Shown here: in pieces, positions 21,327 through 30,470 of the stretch | Numbering within the stretch: position 1 is the stretch's first letter | How the letters are laid out: each line of letters starts with the position of its first letter | Source of the DNA: an uncultured Pseudomonadales bacterium | GTDB lineage: Bacteria > Pseudomonadota > Gammaproteobacteria > Pseudomonadales > Azotimanducaceae | Direction of reading: 5' to 3' | Assembly (NCBI GenBank): GCA_958296195.1 | Contig: OY282455.1 | Coordinates: forward strand, 2,170,001 to 2,234,000 | DNA: 64,000 nucleotides | Translations under genes and position numbers: made by a program | Notes under the pieces: generated by a model | Seen by the model: the letters and a program-made list of their open reading frames with translations, nothing else | The model's database searches: none | What the model was told of the DNA's origin: nothing

Positions 21327-22937
21327 CTAAAGCGTCCAGACTGTCACCCCGCGGCCGATCTGTTGGTGCTCGCCGGCCTCCGCCTTGCCTTGCCGCTCAG
21401 GTTCTCCCGCCCCTTCCCGCCGGTCGAACAGCACCAAATGCCCTTGGTCGGCACGGCACTTGGCCATGTAGTCCAAGGTCTGCTCCACGCCCCGCTGTGT
21501 CGTGCTTTCCAAGCTCCGCTTGTCCCAATCCCGCAGCACCTTGCATTCGATCACGATGCGCTGCCATAGGTCCGACGGGTCGCCCGCCGCCTGCGGCCAG
21601 AGCACCAAAAGGTCCGTCCTGCCGCGGCCCAGCCCGTACTCTCGGTCAATGCGCCCACCGCCGTTCACGATTCGATGCAAATAGGATTGCAGGATGAGCT
21701 GGTGCGCCGCTTCCCGGTACTCGTCGAACCGCTCAAGCCAGTGCTCGGCGTGTTCGGTGTAGAAAGTCATGAAGGCTGTCAGCAGCTTGCGCATGTTCAA
21801 GCGGCCGTCGGCGTCAATGTACCAGACCGCCCGCTCATCCAAGCTGCTTTGCAGGATGTAGCCCAGCTCCCGGGGCACCACCTCCGCGTAGATTGGGTTT
21901 GCCATGCGCGGCGGCTGGCCGCCGTCAATCAGCCCCAAGTCGCGGAGGTACTCTAGATCGCGCACCTGATGCTGGGCCTCGCCGCCACTCAGCATGGGCA
22001 CGACGACGCGCCGCACCCGCTCTTCCTCCAGCTTGTGTGCTAGCTGGTCTAGATGTGTACGCCGCGACAGGATCAGCTCCTCCCGCACAGCGAAGATGTC
22101 ATCCTTCCCAATGGCCTGCGAGCGGTCACGCCCCGCCTTGCTGTCGAAGCAGGCGCCGGCGCACAGCGCGTTCACCAGCCAAGGCTGGCCGTTGGTCTGC
22201 GCCCACACCGCGTCCAGCGCTTCCGGCGTGAACCGCTGCCCGGTTGCTTCGGTGTGCTGCGCCGTTAAAGCTCGGGTCTCCGCTTCGGTGAAGTTTCCTA
22301 AGCGCAGGGATTTGGCTGCCACGTTGAATGGGCTGCCGCCCGCGACGACCTCGCCGGAACTAGAGTGAATGCGATAGTCTCGTATGTCGCGCACACCGCA
22401 CAGGACGATGCTCTGCGGGAAGCCTTCTGGGCGCTGCTCGTAGCCGGAGCGCAACTGGCGCAGCACGGACAGCAGCGTGTCCCCCACCAACGAGTCAATC
22501 TCGTCCACCAGCAGCACCAGAGGCACCGGGCTGGCGCGGCTCCAGCGGGTGAGCAGCAGGTTGATTGCGCCATCGGCGCCCACTGCCGCCAAAATATCCT
22601 GCCAGACTCTGCTCGGATAGTCGTCGCCCAACGCAAGAGCGTTCTCCGCCAGGAGGCCGAGGATGGTGCGAATCCCCCGCGCTGCGTCATCCCGCGCCAC
22701 TTGACCGACCTCGACGTTGACATTGATGCAGCGGAAGTTGCCGGCCTCGCCGCTGTTCAGCAGGTCGCGCAGCGCGATCAGCGCAGAGGTCTTGCCGGTC
22801 TGCCGAGGCGCATGCAGCACGAAGTAGCGCTGGCCTTGAATCAGCCCCAGTAGCTCATCGATGTCCATCCGCTCCAGCGGCGGAATGGCGTAGTGCATGT
22901 GCGGGCGCACTGGCCCTTCGGTGTTGAAGAAGCGCAT
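21327..22937 (-). CDS. AAA ATPase with C-terminal PD-(D/E)XK nuclease-like domain
   Basis: The 536-residue protein has a STAND/AAA-like ATPase in its N-terminal half: Walker A APRQTGKTS at 43-51 and Walker B VLLVDEID near 140. The middle is a helical winged region. The C-terminus carries a restriction-nuclease-like core, with Asp in GRGRTDLLVLW near 442 and IVIECKV near 462 (D...ExK). This architecture is common in bacterial proteins of the AAA-ATPase-like/PDDEXK group, which are often mobile and suspected of defence or element-maintenance roles, but their biochemical job is unproven. It has its own gap of over 100 bases on both sides. No adjacent transposase or phage gene is seen. Confidence 0.82.
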   Translation of the reverse strand: MRFFNTEGPVRPHMHYAIPPLERMDIDELLGLIQGQRYFVLHAPRQTGKTSALIALRDLLNSGEAGNFRCINVNVEVGQVARDDAARGIRTILGLLAENALALGDDYPSRVWQDILAAVGADGAINLLLTRWSRASPVPLVLLVDEIDSLVGDTLLSVLRQLRSGYEQRPEGFPQSIVLCGVRDIRDYRIHSSSGEVVAGGSPFNVAAKSLRLGNFTEAETRALTAQHTEATGQRFTPEALDAVWAQTNGQPWLVNALCAGACFDSKAGRDRSQAIGKDDIFAVREELILSRRTHLDQLAHKLEEERVRRVVVPMLSGGEAQHQVRDLEYLRDLGLIDGGQPPRMANPIYAEVVPRELGYILQSSLDERAVWYIDADGRLNMRKLLTAFMTFYTEHAEHWLERFDEYREAAHQLILQSYLHRIVNGGGRIDREYGLGRGRTDLLVLWPQAAGDPSDLWQRIVIECKVLRDWDKRSLESTTQRGVEQTLDYMAKCRADQGHLVLFDRREGAGEPERQGKAEAGEHQQIGRGVTVWTL

Positions 22938-26974: not shown

Positions 26975-27050
26975 CAAGTAGCCCACCAAGTAGCCCACCG
27001 ACCAAACCGAATCAACAAAATGTTGATAAAACTGTCAACAGCGCTCAACA
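26975..27050. promoter_or_regulatory. Tandem repeat and palindromic operator array before R-M methyltransferase
   Basis: A 12-base unit CAAGTAGCCCAC is repeated without a gap at 26,975-26,986 and 26,987-26,998. Next come hexamers TCAACA (27,012-27,017), TGTTGA (27,021-27,026), TCAACA (27,035-27,040) and TCAACA (27,045-27,050). The first two form a perfect palindrome with an AAA spacer, and the second and third form another inverted pair. The array ends 10 bases before the ATG of a methyltransferase with an N-terminal repressor-like HTH, so it is a likely self-regulatory site. TTGATA at 27,023 could be a -35 element within it. Confidence 0.6.
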
Positions 27051-27060
27051 TAGCAGACCT

Positions 27061-29556
27061 ATGGAAGTTGGAGCATTCATACGCCAGCGCCGGGTTGAGC
27101 TTGGTTTGTCCTTGCGTGGTGTGGCGCAGCGGCTTGATCTGGACGTGGCGTACCTTTCGCGGATTGAGAGTGGGCAGGTTCCGCCATCGGTGCAGATACT
27201 GAGAAAACTGGCGGACTTGCTTGGCTGCAGTGAGGACGAGTTGCTGTTTCTTTCTGGGCGGCTGCCGGAGCGGATTCGGGCGTTGATCTCGCGTCAGCCA
27301 GAAAAGGCTGCGGCTGCGTTGGCGACCATGGCCGAGCTGTGCTTGGCGGAACCAGGTTCGGCCGCCGGTGTGGCGCTGGTTGCGGAGCGAGGCCGGCGTG
27401 TCGTCGAAGATGGCTTCCCGTTCGAGTGGGTCAGCGAGGTTGCGGAAATCGAAAGCTGGCGGAAGGAGTTGTATCGACCTATCTACCACATGCACAAGTG
27501 GTGGGCGCAACGTTTGGGATCGGTCTTTCGGGCAGCGATCATCGCGGCTGCCGCCCCGAAGGGCTCATCGGTGATGGACCTTTTTTACGAACCTGTGCGG
27601 TTGCCGGGGCTAGTGGTGTTTGACCCCTTCATGGGTAGCGGCACCACGGTGGGCGAAGCGCAGAAACTCGGCTGCACGACCGTTGGCCGCGACATCAACC
27701 CGGTGGCGCACCGAGCGGTTCGGGTTGCTCTCGGGGAGATTAGTCGAGCCGAGGTCCACGCCCAATACAGGCGGGTTGAAGCAAGCGCTGGGCGCGAAAT
27801 TAGACGCCTATATCAATCCACTGACGGCGATGGGCAGCCCTGCGAGGTACTCTACTTCTTTTGGGTGAAATTCCTGCCTTGTCCTCAATGCGGGGAGGAC
27901 GTCGATCTCTTTTCCAGCTACATCATCGCCTCCCACGCAAACAAAGCCCGGCATCCTCAGGCAAGGGCGCTCTGCCCTGACTGCGGCGCACTACCTGTGT
28001 GCCGTTACGACGCCACATCCGTAAGTTGTTCATGCGGCTTAACATTCGACCCGCGAAATGGCCTGGCCCGGCGCACGACCGCTGTTTGCGGAGGCTGCGC
28101 CCATGAATTCCCGATCGCGAGGACTGCCGCAGGCGCTGGTGGCCCACCTAGTCACCGGCTCTACGCCAAGCTTGTTCTTAGAGCGAATGGCATCAAGGAG
28201 TATCTTCCTGCAACGACGGAAGATGTGCGTGCCTTTGCTGCAGCCCGCAAACGCTTGACGGAAGTTAATCCGCCGATTCCGTCCACACCAATAGAGGACG
28301 GGCACAACACCAAGCAGATTCTCAACTACGGCTACCGCTACTGGCACGAACTATTCAACGCCCGTCAACTTCTCGCGCTCACCACTTTAGCGACCTCGAT
28401 CAGAGACTTGCCCGATGGTGGTGCCCGCGATGCGCTGTCGCTACTCTTTTCGGGGGTTTTGGAGTTCAACAACATGTTCGCCTCCTATAAGGGCGAAGGA
28501 ACAGGTGCCGTGCGCCATATGTTTGCCCATCACATCCTGAAACCAGAACGAACGCCCATTGAAGCGAACCTGTGGGGCACATCCAAGAGCTCCGGCGCGT
28601 TCTCAACGCTTTATAAAAGCCGCCTGCTTCGAGCTCTGGCATATAGAGAAGCTCCGTTCGAGATTGCTGTGGAATACAAAGGCAAGCGGAAGTCAGGCCG
28701 AAAGGTTTTTGGCGCAAGCTCGCCTATGGGAGGCGAAGTGCTGGACGGCCTGCCAAAACGCGCCCTAAAGGCCGGGGCCACCTACATTTCCTGCGGTGAT
28801 TCTGCGAAAACTGACCTGGCCGACCAAAGCGTGGACCTCGTTGTGACCGATCCACCATTCTTTGACAACGTTCACTACTCAGAATTAGCGGATTTCTTTT
28901 TCGCATGGCAGCAGACCTACTTCTTTCAGGGTGGCGGTCAGCATACGACCAGACGTGCGGAGGAAGTGCAGGACACGGATGTTCGCATGTTTGCGAAGAA
29001 GTTAAGGATGGTTTTCACGGAGTGCAATCGGGTGCTTCGGGACCGGGGGCTAATGGTGTTCAGCTACCACCATTCCAAGGAAAGCGGATGGACGGCCTTG
29101 GCGGAAGCCGTAGTTGGTGCGGGATTTTCGATTATTCAATCCCAACCCGTGAAATCGGAGATGTCGGTGGCGGCGCCCAAAAGCCAAGCCAAGCAACCCA
29201 TCAATTTGGACATGCTGATCGTTTGCCGTAAACGGCAAATGGACCGGCGTGAGCGCAAGACCGAGAGTGCCGCGTTTGCGGCGTCTCAGGAGACGGGGGT
29301 AGATCAGGTTCGGCGATTCAATGCAGTCGGCAGGAAGCTGTCGCGCAATGACGTGCGAGTCGTGCTCTTGAGTCAATTGTTGGTTGAGTTGTGCGCGGAT
29401 AGAAGCATTGATGATGTTCGAATGAGCTTGGATATGCTTCTCCCGAGAGTGGATCGAATAGCTGAGGGCATTTGGTACGCTCAGACCATCCGGGAGTCAC
29501 CGGAGCAATTGACGTCGATAGGCGGGGCCGAACAGCTTTCCATGCTTGAGGCGTAG
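27061..29556 (+). CDS. DNA methyltransferase with N-terminal XRE-type HTH and internal zinc ribbons
   Basis: ATG 27061 starts an 831-residue protein; a longer upstream open frame runs antisense through an acyl-CoA dehydrogenase and is rejected. Residues 5-60 form an XRE/lambda-repressor helix-turn-helix (FIRQRRVELGLSLRGVAQRL, then YLSRIESGQ). Motif I for S-adenosylmethionine, VFDPFMGSGTTVGEA, lies near 186-200, and the catalytic motif IV, VTDPPFFDNVHYSEL, near 597. Between them are four Cys pairs (CPQCG, CPDCG, CSCG, CGGC) that look like zinc ribbons, probably in the target-recognition region. DPPF suggests an amino-methyltransferase (N6-adenine or N4-cytosine). The KWWAQRLGSVFRA segment resembles DUF1156-type methylases. 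A PD-(D/E)XK nuclease gene lies tail-to-tail 1 base away. Confidence 0.87.
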   Translation: MEVGAFIRQRRVELGLSLRGVAQRLDLDVAYLSRIESGQVPPSVQILRKLADLLGCSEDELLFLSGRLPERIRALISRQPEKAAAALATMAELCLAEPGSAAGVALVAERGRRVVEDGFPFEWVSEVAEIESWRKELYRPIYHMHKWWAQRLGSVFRAAIIAAAAPKGSSVMDLFYEPVRLPGLVVFDPFMGSGTTVGEAQKLGCTTVGRDINPVAHRAVRVALGEISRAEVHAQYRRVEASAGREIRRLYQSTDGDGQPCEVLYFFWVKFLPCPQCGEDVDLFSSYIIASHANKARHPQARALCPDCGALPVCRYDATSVSCSCGLTFDPRNGLARRTTAVCGGCAHEFPIARTAAGAGGPPSHRLYAKLVLRANGIKEYLPATTEDVRAFAAARKRLTEVNPPIPSTPIEDGHNTKQILNYGYRYWHELFNARQLLALTTLATSIRDLPDGGARDALSLLFSGVLEFNNMFASYKGEGTGAVRHMFAHHILKPERTPIEANLWGTSKSSGAFSTLYKSRLLRALAYREAPFEIAVEYKGKRKSGRKVFGASSPMGGEVLDGLPKRALKAGATYISCGDSAKTDLADQSVDLVVTDPPFFDNVHYSELADFFFAWQQTYFFQGGGQHTTRRAEEVQDTDVRMFAKKLRMVFTECNRVLRDRGLMVFSYHHSKESGWTALAEAVVGAGFSIIQSQPVKSEMSVAAPKSQAKQPINLDMLIVCRKRQMDRRERKTESAAFAASQETGVDQVRRFNAVGRKLSRNDVRVVLLSQLLVELCADRSIDDVRMSLDMLLPRVDRIAEGIWYAQTIRESPEQLTSIGGAEQLSMLEA

Positions 29557-29557
29557 G

Positions 29558-30439
29558 CTACAACTCGAACGGTAGAGTGAAGCGGCCTCTGGGCCGGGTT
29601 CTTATGTTGCGCACTGGTGTCAAAAAGGGATCTTCTAGAACTCGAATGGGGTCGCTCTGCGCATCCTGAGCATAACGATAGCAATGAAATTCTCGAACTT
29701 CGCCTTCCGGAATGGATCGCTTTAGAATGAAAATCTTCTGTAAGTCATCGGACTGTTCCGCTAGTGTGTCATCGGCATGAATCAGCGTCGCCGCCTGATC
29801 GAGCTCGGGTGTCCCAAGAGGGTTGCCGAAGATTAGCATCGGTCGGACGCGGTTAACGCCGTCAGAATAACTGCCAAGCCCAATCCTCTTGGTGCGCTCA
29901 CCAGTAATGTTCAGATAAAGTTCAAAATCTTCATTCAAGGCATTGCCGTCCACGAGAGCAAGCGCTGAAACAATCACAAGTCCCTTGGGTGGGGATGCCG
30001 GCTCGACGCAAACGAATAGATAGAACCCGCGGATGTCACATGGAATTGCATTTATGTCAAATACTCGGATTTGGCCGCAAGGGGGTGTCGTATTGAAGTC
30101 TATTCCGGAAGCACGCGCAACGCGGCCCGAACCAGCCCGCTCCACCTTTTTTACCTCAATGCCCACTATTTGCGTTAGGTCATCGGGGCGACTGATTTGC
30201 GTATCGGACTTATGGAGCACCATATCTGGCGTGATCAAAGGTCCCGGTGCCTTTACGCAATTCATGCCGCTCCATCGCGAAAAGACAGTGTTTGCAAGAA
30301 ACTCATCAAAAGGGTCATCTTGAGTATTGCGCTTATCGCGCAGCCGGAAAGGAACAGGATGGCCGCCATCATCAAAAAACTGCCTTTGAAGCCTTAGAAA
30401 TGCGAGCGCCGGAATATCCACCAATTGATGACGCCTCAT
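29558..30439 (-). CDS. Putative type II restriction endonuclease (PD-(D/E)XK)
   Basis: This 293-residue protein shows a restriction-nuclease active-site pattern. Pro71-Asp72 lie in GPLITPDMVLHKSD, and after about 20 residues comes IVGIEVKKVER with Glu95 and Lys97. This PD...ExK spacing is typical of type II enzymes, which cut DNA at a site protected by a partner methylase. ATG 30439 is preferred over an in-frame TTG upstream. The gene ends 1 base from the end of the HTH-methyltransferase gene on the opposite strand. It starts 32 bases after the S9 peptidase stop, so it may also receive read-through transcription. It is lower in GC than its neighbours, as is usual for transferred R-M genes. 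Recognition site unknown. Confidence 0.78.
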   Translation of the reverse strand: MRRHQLVDIPALAFLRLQRQFFDDGGHPVPFRLRDKRNTQDDPFDEFLANTVFSRWSGMNCVKAPGPLITPDMVLHKSDTQISRPDDLTQIVGIEVKKVERAGSGRVARASGIDFNTTPPCGQIRVFDINAIPCDIRGFYLFVCVEPASPPKGLVIVSALALVDGNALNEDFELYLNITGERTKRIGLGSYSDGVNRVRPMLIFGNPLGTPELDQAATLIHADDTLAEQSDDLQKIFILKRSIPEGEVREFHCYRYAQDAQSDPIRVLEDPFLTPVRNIRTRPRGRFTLPFEL

Positions 30440-30470
30440 GCGCCTACGCGGCAAGGACGCTTTCCTTCTC

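Follow-up and report, generated by a model that had tools for sequence, protein, structure and literature searches.

The window, a stretch of 64,000 nucleotides from an uncultured Pseudomonadales bacterium, carries a pair of genes encoding an HTH-fused DNA methyltransferase (M) and a PD-(D/E)XK nuclease (R). The genes are convergent (tail-to-tail) and their stop codons lie one base apart, as a previous reading made from the sequence alone had described. The features of the locus are the following.

27014..30452, no strand: mobile two-gene cassette (M promoter, M and R), delimited by a 90% alignment to a same-genus copy
27022..27039, no strand: predicted operator GTTGATAAAACTGTCAAC, overlapping the predicted M promoter; 12/12 to GTTGAYN6RTCAAC
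27023..27051, plus strand: predicted M promoter, with -35 TTGATA (27023-27028), a 17-nt spacer and a -10-like CAACAT (27046-27051)
27061..29556, plus strand: M, HTH-fused DNA methyltransferase of 831 aa, ATG at 27061, TAG at 29554-29556
27064..27246, plus strand: XRE/Cro-type HTH domain of M, residues 2-62 (Pfam HTH_31 and HTH_3)
27619..27645, plus strand: methyltransferase motif I, FDPFMGSGT, residues 187-195 (DPFMGSG at 188-194), located by sequence
27880..28098, plus strand: Cys-pair (zinc-ribbon-like) insert of M, residues 274-346, with eight cysteines
28846..28860, plus strand: methyltransferase motif IV, TDPPF, residues 596-600 (DPPF at 597-600)
29558..30439, minus strand: R, PD-(D/E)XK nuclease, 293 aa from ATG 30439; alternative start GTG 30421
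30149..30157, minus strand: R catalytic E95-V-K97, with E95 and K97 invariant in 38/38 sequences
30224..30229, minus strand: R catalytic P71-D72, invariant in 38/38 sequences

The methyltransferase, the nuclease and their mobility

The N-terminus of M matches Pfam HTH_31 (1.3e-14, 54.6 bits against a cut-off of 27) and HTH_3 (1.3e-14, 54.4 bits against 23), and the top HTH row of a fold search with M is the HTH of DdrO (6rnz; 35% identity, rmsd 1.4 over 62 columns). The catalytic part matches N6_N4_Mtase (PF01555; 3e-13, 50.7 bits against 26.7), which is the methyltransferase family above cut-off, and no C5 methylase family occurs among the 11 families listed; these matches bear out the fusion of an XRE HTH to an 831-residue methyltransferase that had been read from the sequence. 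The AlphaFold2 model of M has a mean pLDDT of 84.4, and a search of phage records with M returned no match. Conservation was followed in 81 loci, namely the window and the best 80 of 214 confirmed relatives. D188, P189, F190, G192 and G194 of motif I are invariant in 81/81, as is the DPPF of motif IV, with DPPY in four plasmid relatives. The four Cys pairs noticed earlier inside M are 274/277, 305/308, 323/325 and 343/346, of which 323/325 is a CxC and not a CxxC. This insert, which is predicted to bind zinc, had been considered unusual, but it is a property of the family and not an oddity of the window protein: in the best 80 of 214 relatives and the window all eight cysteines are invariant (81/81), and they are partly lost in the four plasmid relatives.

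The assignment of R as a PD...ExK nuclease, also proposed from the sequence, agrees with the invariance of P71, D72, E95 and K97 in 38 aligned relatives, drawn from the 80 loci with R (23/24 convergent and 15/56 same-strand loci, with the split R of L040 left out). The AlphaFold2 model of R has a mean pLDDT of 84.2, and the first 45 VIA rows of its fold search are all Type II endonucleases, representing six enzymes, with middling Z scores. Identity to SwaI, EcoRV and HincII is 10-16% in the rows shown, with no sequence match. Window R matches no Pfam or NCBIfam profile, and PADLOC recognizes neither it nor seven relatives, so that R represents a nuclease family that no profile of these collections matches; two PDB sequence searches gave no hit and a third gave a single hit at E 1.6, and a plasmid search with R gave no match. 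Two subfamilies of the nuclease were compared by profile with a probability of only 11.7%, from shallow alignments, and are joined by the intermediates L031 and L048, by both HMM and alignment. The start position of R is uncertain: ATG 30439 is absent from a 90%-identical copy, which keeps GTG 30421.

That copy lies in a genome of the same genus (L016, identical to L026) and aligns at 90% over 3439 bp, while the window flanks, on the left to 26934 and on the right from 30477, match other places in the same-genus genome. M and R are thus a mobile cassette with two copies in different genomic places. In the locus set, L026 is a copy of G001 and L030 a copy of G046.

Gene order, HTH fusion and neighboring genes in the family

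An R of the same family adjoins M in 79 of the best 80 of 214 relatives, as well as in the window, and is partial or split in nine of them (L040, L041, L058, L075, L086, L093, L097, L098 and L099). With SAM-binding and catalytic motifs in M (PF01555; DPF.G.G and DPPF in 81/81 loci of the same sample) and a separate endonuclease gene beside it, the pair would be a Type II-like restriction-modification (R-M) system, a function that domains and linkage suggest. The sequence-only reading had named a close match to a characterized R-M system as one finding that would speak against it, and none was found for the pair in Pfam, NCBIfam, PADLOC or PDB sequences. Members of the family come from records of one archaeon and of numerous bacterial phyla.

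The fused HTH follows gene order. In the best 80 of 214 relatives plus the window it occurs in 21/24 convergent pairs versus 1/56 same-strand pairs, L071, where no R was found, being left out of these counts. The same-strand exception, L057, stands at the threshold for HTH_31 (27.0 against a cut-off of 27) and above it for HTH_3 (25.7 against 23). Of the 60 loci lacking a family-HMM match, 53 were covered by the N-terminal Pfam scan, the other seven having fewer than 25 aa there, and relatives without the HTH retain a complete methyltransferase core. A single M clade uniting the 21 convergent HTH loci was rejected (p-AU 0.003). On the unrooted M tree the HTH changes eight times with L057 and seven without it, and gene order changes five times; set A6 used 40 of the 81 M sequences. 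In 16/24 convergent pairs the two stop codons overlap or are separated by at most 16 bp, and the remaining 8/24 have gaps of 27-187 bp.

No obligatory third subunit was seen among shared neighbors (ORFs of at least 110 aa), the largest cluster covering 3/24 convergent and 4/56 same-strand loci. A small ORF recurs upstream of M in 8/29 M-R loci, 0/27 R-M loci and 0/24 convergent loci (best 80 of 214 plus the window), and RHH_1 was found below cut-off in two of the five tested; the other large clusters of small ORFs are reading frames overlapping the M start. In the same-strand loci, 137 small upstream ORFs occur in 49/56, and among 90 such ORFs scanned there were one HTH_3, one HTH_31 and one YdaS match. 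No separate small XRE controller gene was recognized, and in the window the HTH is fused to M.

A conserved palindrome at the predicted M promoter

The predicted operator lies across the predicted promoter of M, and none of 200 shuffles reached its score in the window. The 4.31-Mb genome holds four exact GTTGAYN6RTCAAC sites, one at the M promoter and three inside open reading frames. The -10-like CAACAT, picked as the best hexamer over five spacings, is weak (three of six positions to TATAAT) and ends 9 nt before the ATG, a distance from which the M mRNA may be leaderless; a generic sigma-70 scan of the region upstream of M found no promoter. The same arrangement recurs in the family: in 20/21 convergent HTH loci (best 80 of 214 plus the window) the palindrome stands 17-23 nt ahead of the ATG, its left half could act as a -35 box, and a -10-like hexamer ends 6-10 nt before the ATG.

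Palindrome and HTH go together. Among the 22 fused-HTH loci (best 80 of 214 plus the window) the palindrome is exact in 17, scores 10/12 in four and only 7/12 in L057, while none of the 59 loci without an HTH reaches 11/12 or more; three of the latter score 10/12, their distances to the M core being 168, 3 and 178 nt. The association has a Fisher p of 2e-13, a value that ignores the relatedness of the loci. Both deep clades of the M tree contain the palindrome, which is exact in 4/8 HTH loci of the clade without the window, and exact copies occur in records titled planctomycetes, Thermodesulfobacteriota and Gammaproteobacteria. Around the R start, by comparison, a search reaching from 250 nt upstream to 60 nt within the gene gave best scores of 7-10 of 12 in 24/24 convergent loci, with no operator; the highest, 10 in L048, lies about 200 nt upstream. 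Since no palindrome accompanies the R start in these 24 loci, M appears to be the target of the switch, and direct control of R by the HTH is unlikely.

A probable autorepressing methyltransferase and its wider context

These observations make it likely, in our judgement, that the locus is a mobile Type II-like R-M cassette in which the methyltransferase doubles as an autorepressor. That the methylase itself may be the regulator had been suggested from its sequence, and the conserved palindrome over the predicted M promoter, present with the HTH in convergent loci and missing without it, strongly supports predicted self-repression of M through its HTH. In a new host, the M promoter would start out unrepressed and yield M, probably from a leaderless mRNA, and M would methylate the chromosome. 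With rising M levels, a pair of N-terminal HTH domains would bind GTTGAY-N6-RTCAAC across the -35 region and spacer, and the occupied operator would exclude RNA polymerase and cap the level of M. R, as a PD-(D/E)XK endonuclease, would cut unmethylated incoming DNA.

Self-repression has a precedent in the regulatory C5-methyltransferases, of which M.SsoII, M.Ecl18kI, M.EcoRII, M.MspI, M.ScrFIA and M1.LlaJI are named in the literature (PMC3978073, PMC3695355; for self-repression also PMC12707154 and PMC3874152). In these accounts SsoII/Ecl18kI have a 71-residue N-terminal HTH region, modeled on the 434 repressor and followed by a flexible linker, and an inverted repeat over the M promoter (the 15-mer AGGACAAATTGTCCT) that places M under negative feedback; the other regulatory C5-methyltransferases repress their own genes and leave R unaffected (PMC3978073, PMC3695355). 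Window M shares with M.SsoII and M.Ecl18kI the N-terminal HTH and a palindrome over its predicted promoter (17 exact and four at 10/12 among the 21 convergent HTH loci), but it is of the N6/N4 type with a large Cys-rich insert, and the C5-cytosine catalytic domain that defines that group is missing from it. Its operator sequence also differs, and its genes are convergent with no site at R, whereas SsoII/Ecl18kI have divergent genes with competing promoters. A literature search, with most subscription journals outside it, found no N6/N4-type regulatory methyltransferase in print. C-protein systems such as AhdI, Esp1396I and PvuII also combine an XRE-type HTH with a palindromic operator in the timing of R and M, some with convergent gene order, and the AhdI C transcript is described as leaderless (PMC3978073, PMC3850674, PMC5333194); the window, in contrast, has no separate C gene, its HTH being fused to M and its site lying at the M promoter.

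Whether the HTH serves repression at all can be questioned, because extra HTH-like domains are found in Type-3 BREX methyltransferases, and a role in target recognition has been proposed for them (PMC12839542). The HTH of M could likewise be an accessory target-recognition or DNA-anchoring domain and the palindrome a host-regulator site or a promoter feature, as the closeness of its left half to a -35 box and the presence of a fused HTH without palindrome in L057 would allow. This reading appears improbable: in convergent loci the palindrome is tied to the HTH and is absent from the three HTH-less relatives (L030, L035 and L039, scoring 7-8 of 12), one host regulator is unlikely for a site found exactly in three distant groups of records, and the methyltransferase core is complete without the HTH. 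The closest profiles to M belong to the DUF1156/HmaB/PglXI (Type-3 BREX) lineage, whose COG1743 name suggests a zinc ribbon. Among long profiles, M is matched best by DUF1156_antiphage, DUF1156_MTase, HmaB and PglXI, and a large insert inside the core, described as a target-recognition insert in PMC12839542, is common to both. The pair might then belong, as a fragment, to a BREX-like or DUF1156/DUF499 system and not be a classical R-M system, but we give this very little credence, as NF042963 reaches 124.5 bits against a cut-off of 1000, the DUF1156 domain PF06634 13.4 against 24, no neighbor cluster exceeds the small counts given above, and a dedicated nuclease nearly always adjoins M. Unlike the multi-gene systems of that lineage, the window system consists of two genes, a methyltransferase with an XRE HTH at its N-terminus and a dedicated nuclease.

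A further reading keeps the autorepressor and makes convergence itself the timer: early strong transcription of M would run antisense into R and keep its expression low, and self-repression of M would then end the interference and let R rise. It would account for the link between the HTH and tail-to-tail order, is consistent with stop codons so close in 16/24 convergent pairs that little room is left for a terminator, and has parallels in the convergent-promoter collision and antisense control reported for other R-M systems (PMC12707154). The 27-187 bp gaps in the other convergent pairs, the three convergent pairs and the viral-contig pair L106 without an HTH, and a phylogenetic support of only two independent pairs count against it, and we hold it to be possible but rather doubtful. 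A broader proposal, more speculative as a whole, is that of an unnamed, widespread R-M family with control tied to gene order. Convergent members would have an XRE head, and their leaderless promoter would contain an operator, with self-silencing of M lifting antisense transcription from R; same-strand members would lack head and operator (55/56), and part of the M-R operons would carry a small, possibly ribbon-helix-helix gene upstream. If true, a regulatory methyltransferase of the N6/N4 type would be described here for the first time, and the direction of the genes would be its timing device.

It is a standing question how a cell survives the entry of an R-M system. The family offers a natural experiment on it, with related enzymes that carry the repressor head in convergent pairs and lack it in same-strand pairs, and self-repressing methyltransferases would have arisen outside the C5 enzymes too.

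Family conservation and gene order

One genome per species was scanned for relatives, and 81 loci are compared here: the window and the best 80 of the 214 that were confirmed. A PD-(D/E)XK nuclease (R) of the same family adjoins the methyltransferase (M) in 80 of these 81, the exception being L071, and it is partial or split in nine; M itself keeps eight cysteines and DPPF in 81/81. The R family comprises two linked subfamilies, across which PD...ExK, K36, R109, D114 and N116 are invariant (38/38 aligned). The window R matched no profile in Pfam, NCBIfam or PADLOC, the R proteins of seven relatives matched none in PADLOC, and those of three plasmid relatives matched nothing in Pfam beyond one sub-threshold DUF956. 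Four plasmid relatives of M keep the cysteines in part and have DPPY in place of DPPF. A small mobilizable plasmid of Tabrizicola piscis (L021, 8.2 kb) bears an R-M system of this family as well as GmrSD-like DUF262 and MAE_28990-type HEPN genes. The own genome encodes two more methyltransferases of the same broad lineage, at G000:C1:3543820-3545802 (L018, 32% identity) and 1362142-1363860 (L019, 31%), with no match to R's family of nucleases across the 10-12 kb retrieved at either locus.

Among the window and the best 80 of 214 relatives, 24 loci, the window included, have R and M convergent, and 56 have them on the same strand (29 in M-R and 27 in R-M order). The helix-turn-helix (HTH) lies in the M reading frame in 21 of the 24 convergent loci and in 1 of the 56 others, an association with a Fisher p of 4e-15 that is inflated because the loci are related. 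On the M tree the convergent HTH loci fall in two deep clades, with 8 changes required for the HTH and 5 for gene order; their grouping as one clade was rejected (p 0.003). Only 2 informative pairs lie on well-supported branches, both agreeing with the association (sign test p 0.5). The sole same-strand fused HTH found (L057, 5716-6054) is a weak match (HTH_31, 5.8e-6) unlike that of the family, and the palindrome described below is absent there (score 7). Convergent pairs without an HTH are L030, L035 and L039, plus a contig of a viral collection (L106, 3944-7209) with an HTH-less M and a convergent R of the same family.

A small ORF 5' of M is common to 8 of the 29 M-R loci and absent in the 27 R-M and 24 convergent loci (Fisher p 1e-4).

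Small conserved ORFs upstream of M in M-R loci
L074, 5798-6001
L073, 126-383
L063, 5953-6147
L091, 3188-3436
L056, 5694-5873
also L082, L087 and L090

RHH_1 fell below cut-off against this ORF (0.0045 in L091, 0.097 in L074) and gave no match in three other loci tested. It is possibly a ribbon-helix-helix protein and a candidate separate regulator, and its recurrence means that some same-strand systems may have a separate regulator of another fold. Additionally, 90 of the 137 small upstream ORFs found in same-strand loci were scanned, yielding one HTH_3, one HTH_31 and one YdaS.

The predicted operator of M

Upstream of M, the palindrome GTTGAY-N6-RTCAAC is exact in 17 of the 21 convergent HTH loci and matches at 10/12 positions in the remaining L042, L044, L047 and L054. 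The first three keep the left half-site and have a degenerate right half, while L054, archaeal by title, carries a symmetric TTTGAC-N6-GTCAAA farther upstream. Dinucleotide shuffles reached the exact score in 0 of 197-200 cases per locus and 10/12 in 2-11 of 200. In the 59 HTH-less loci (best 80 of 214 plus window), the palindrome was sought in the 200 nt preceding the methyltransferase core rather than a start codon; none scored at least 11/12 and three scored 10/12. A sequence-blind palindrome test was significant in 8/21 convergent HTH loci versus 3/60 others, and the strength of the prediction therefore lies in an identical sequence recurring at an identical place.

In 20 of the 21 loci, the palindrome stands 17-23 nt upstream of the ATG, and its left half can serve as a -35 region. 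The -10-like hexamer that fits best among five spacings ends 6-10 nt upstream of the ATG in these loci, and the M mRNA is accordingly predicted to be leaderless. The window has a weak -10 of its own, and a generic scan found no promoter at this position. The own genome contains three further exact palindromes, all within open reading frames; at the exact-match site of L118, more than one frame could be the gene.

Mobility and a possible R promoter

Positions 27014-30452 are common to the window and a same-genus genome (90%), where the pair lies at 2.22 Mb. The genes flanking the pair in the window are found at other places in that genome: the one for the acyl-CoA dehydrogenase at about 2.44 Mb, the one for the S9 peptidase at about 1.27 Mb. 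R is present in 3 of 117 genomes searched, its own included. The shared stretch extends from 8 nt ahead of the operator to 13 nt upstream of R's ATG, which leaves hardly any common sequence that could hold a promoter for R itself; we infer that the window R may be transcribed from the side of the peptidase gene. The R genes of L042, L044 and L047 have in common an upstream TCTGTTATGATATACTC element, which may be an R promoter. Near the same-genus cassette (L016) are two copies of GTGCGGGGGAACCC, at 1632-1645 and 2122-2135, which by eye look CRISPR-repeat-like. About 4 kb from the window pair, 21327-22937 (minus strand) encodes a protein of 536 aa that combines an AAA_22 ATPase domain with a C-terminal PDDEXK_9 match below threshold, possibly another nuclease/ATPase module.

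Proposed working and known systems

In the working proposed from these sequences, M would be produced early, host DNA would then be methylated, and M would later repress its own gene via the palindrome. The HTH probably exerts no direct control on R; no palindrome above 10/12 was found at the R start region in any of the 24 convergent loci. In a possible further step, M transcription would enter R until M silences itself, which would explain the tie of the HTH to convergent order and agrees with the placing of the M and R stop codons, overlapping or at most 16 bp apart in 16/24 convergent pairs.

The proposed control of M matches that of M.EcoRII, M.MspI, M.ScrFIA and M1.LlaJI, which PMC3978073 describes as repressing themselves with R unaffected, and resembles that of M.SsoII and M.Ecl18kI. 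For M.EcoRII, PMC12707154 reports repression only when its sites are methylated. By analogy, M would act like a regulatory methyltransferase; it differs in the catalytic domain by which that family is tested, which in M is not C5. The self-repressing methyltransferases named here are C5 enzymes (PMC3978073), and the literature searches made found none of the N6/N4 type. What is probably new in this family, judging from these searches, is that self-repression would be put on an N6/N4-type enzyme, having previously belonged to C5 enzymes among the named cases.
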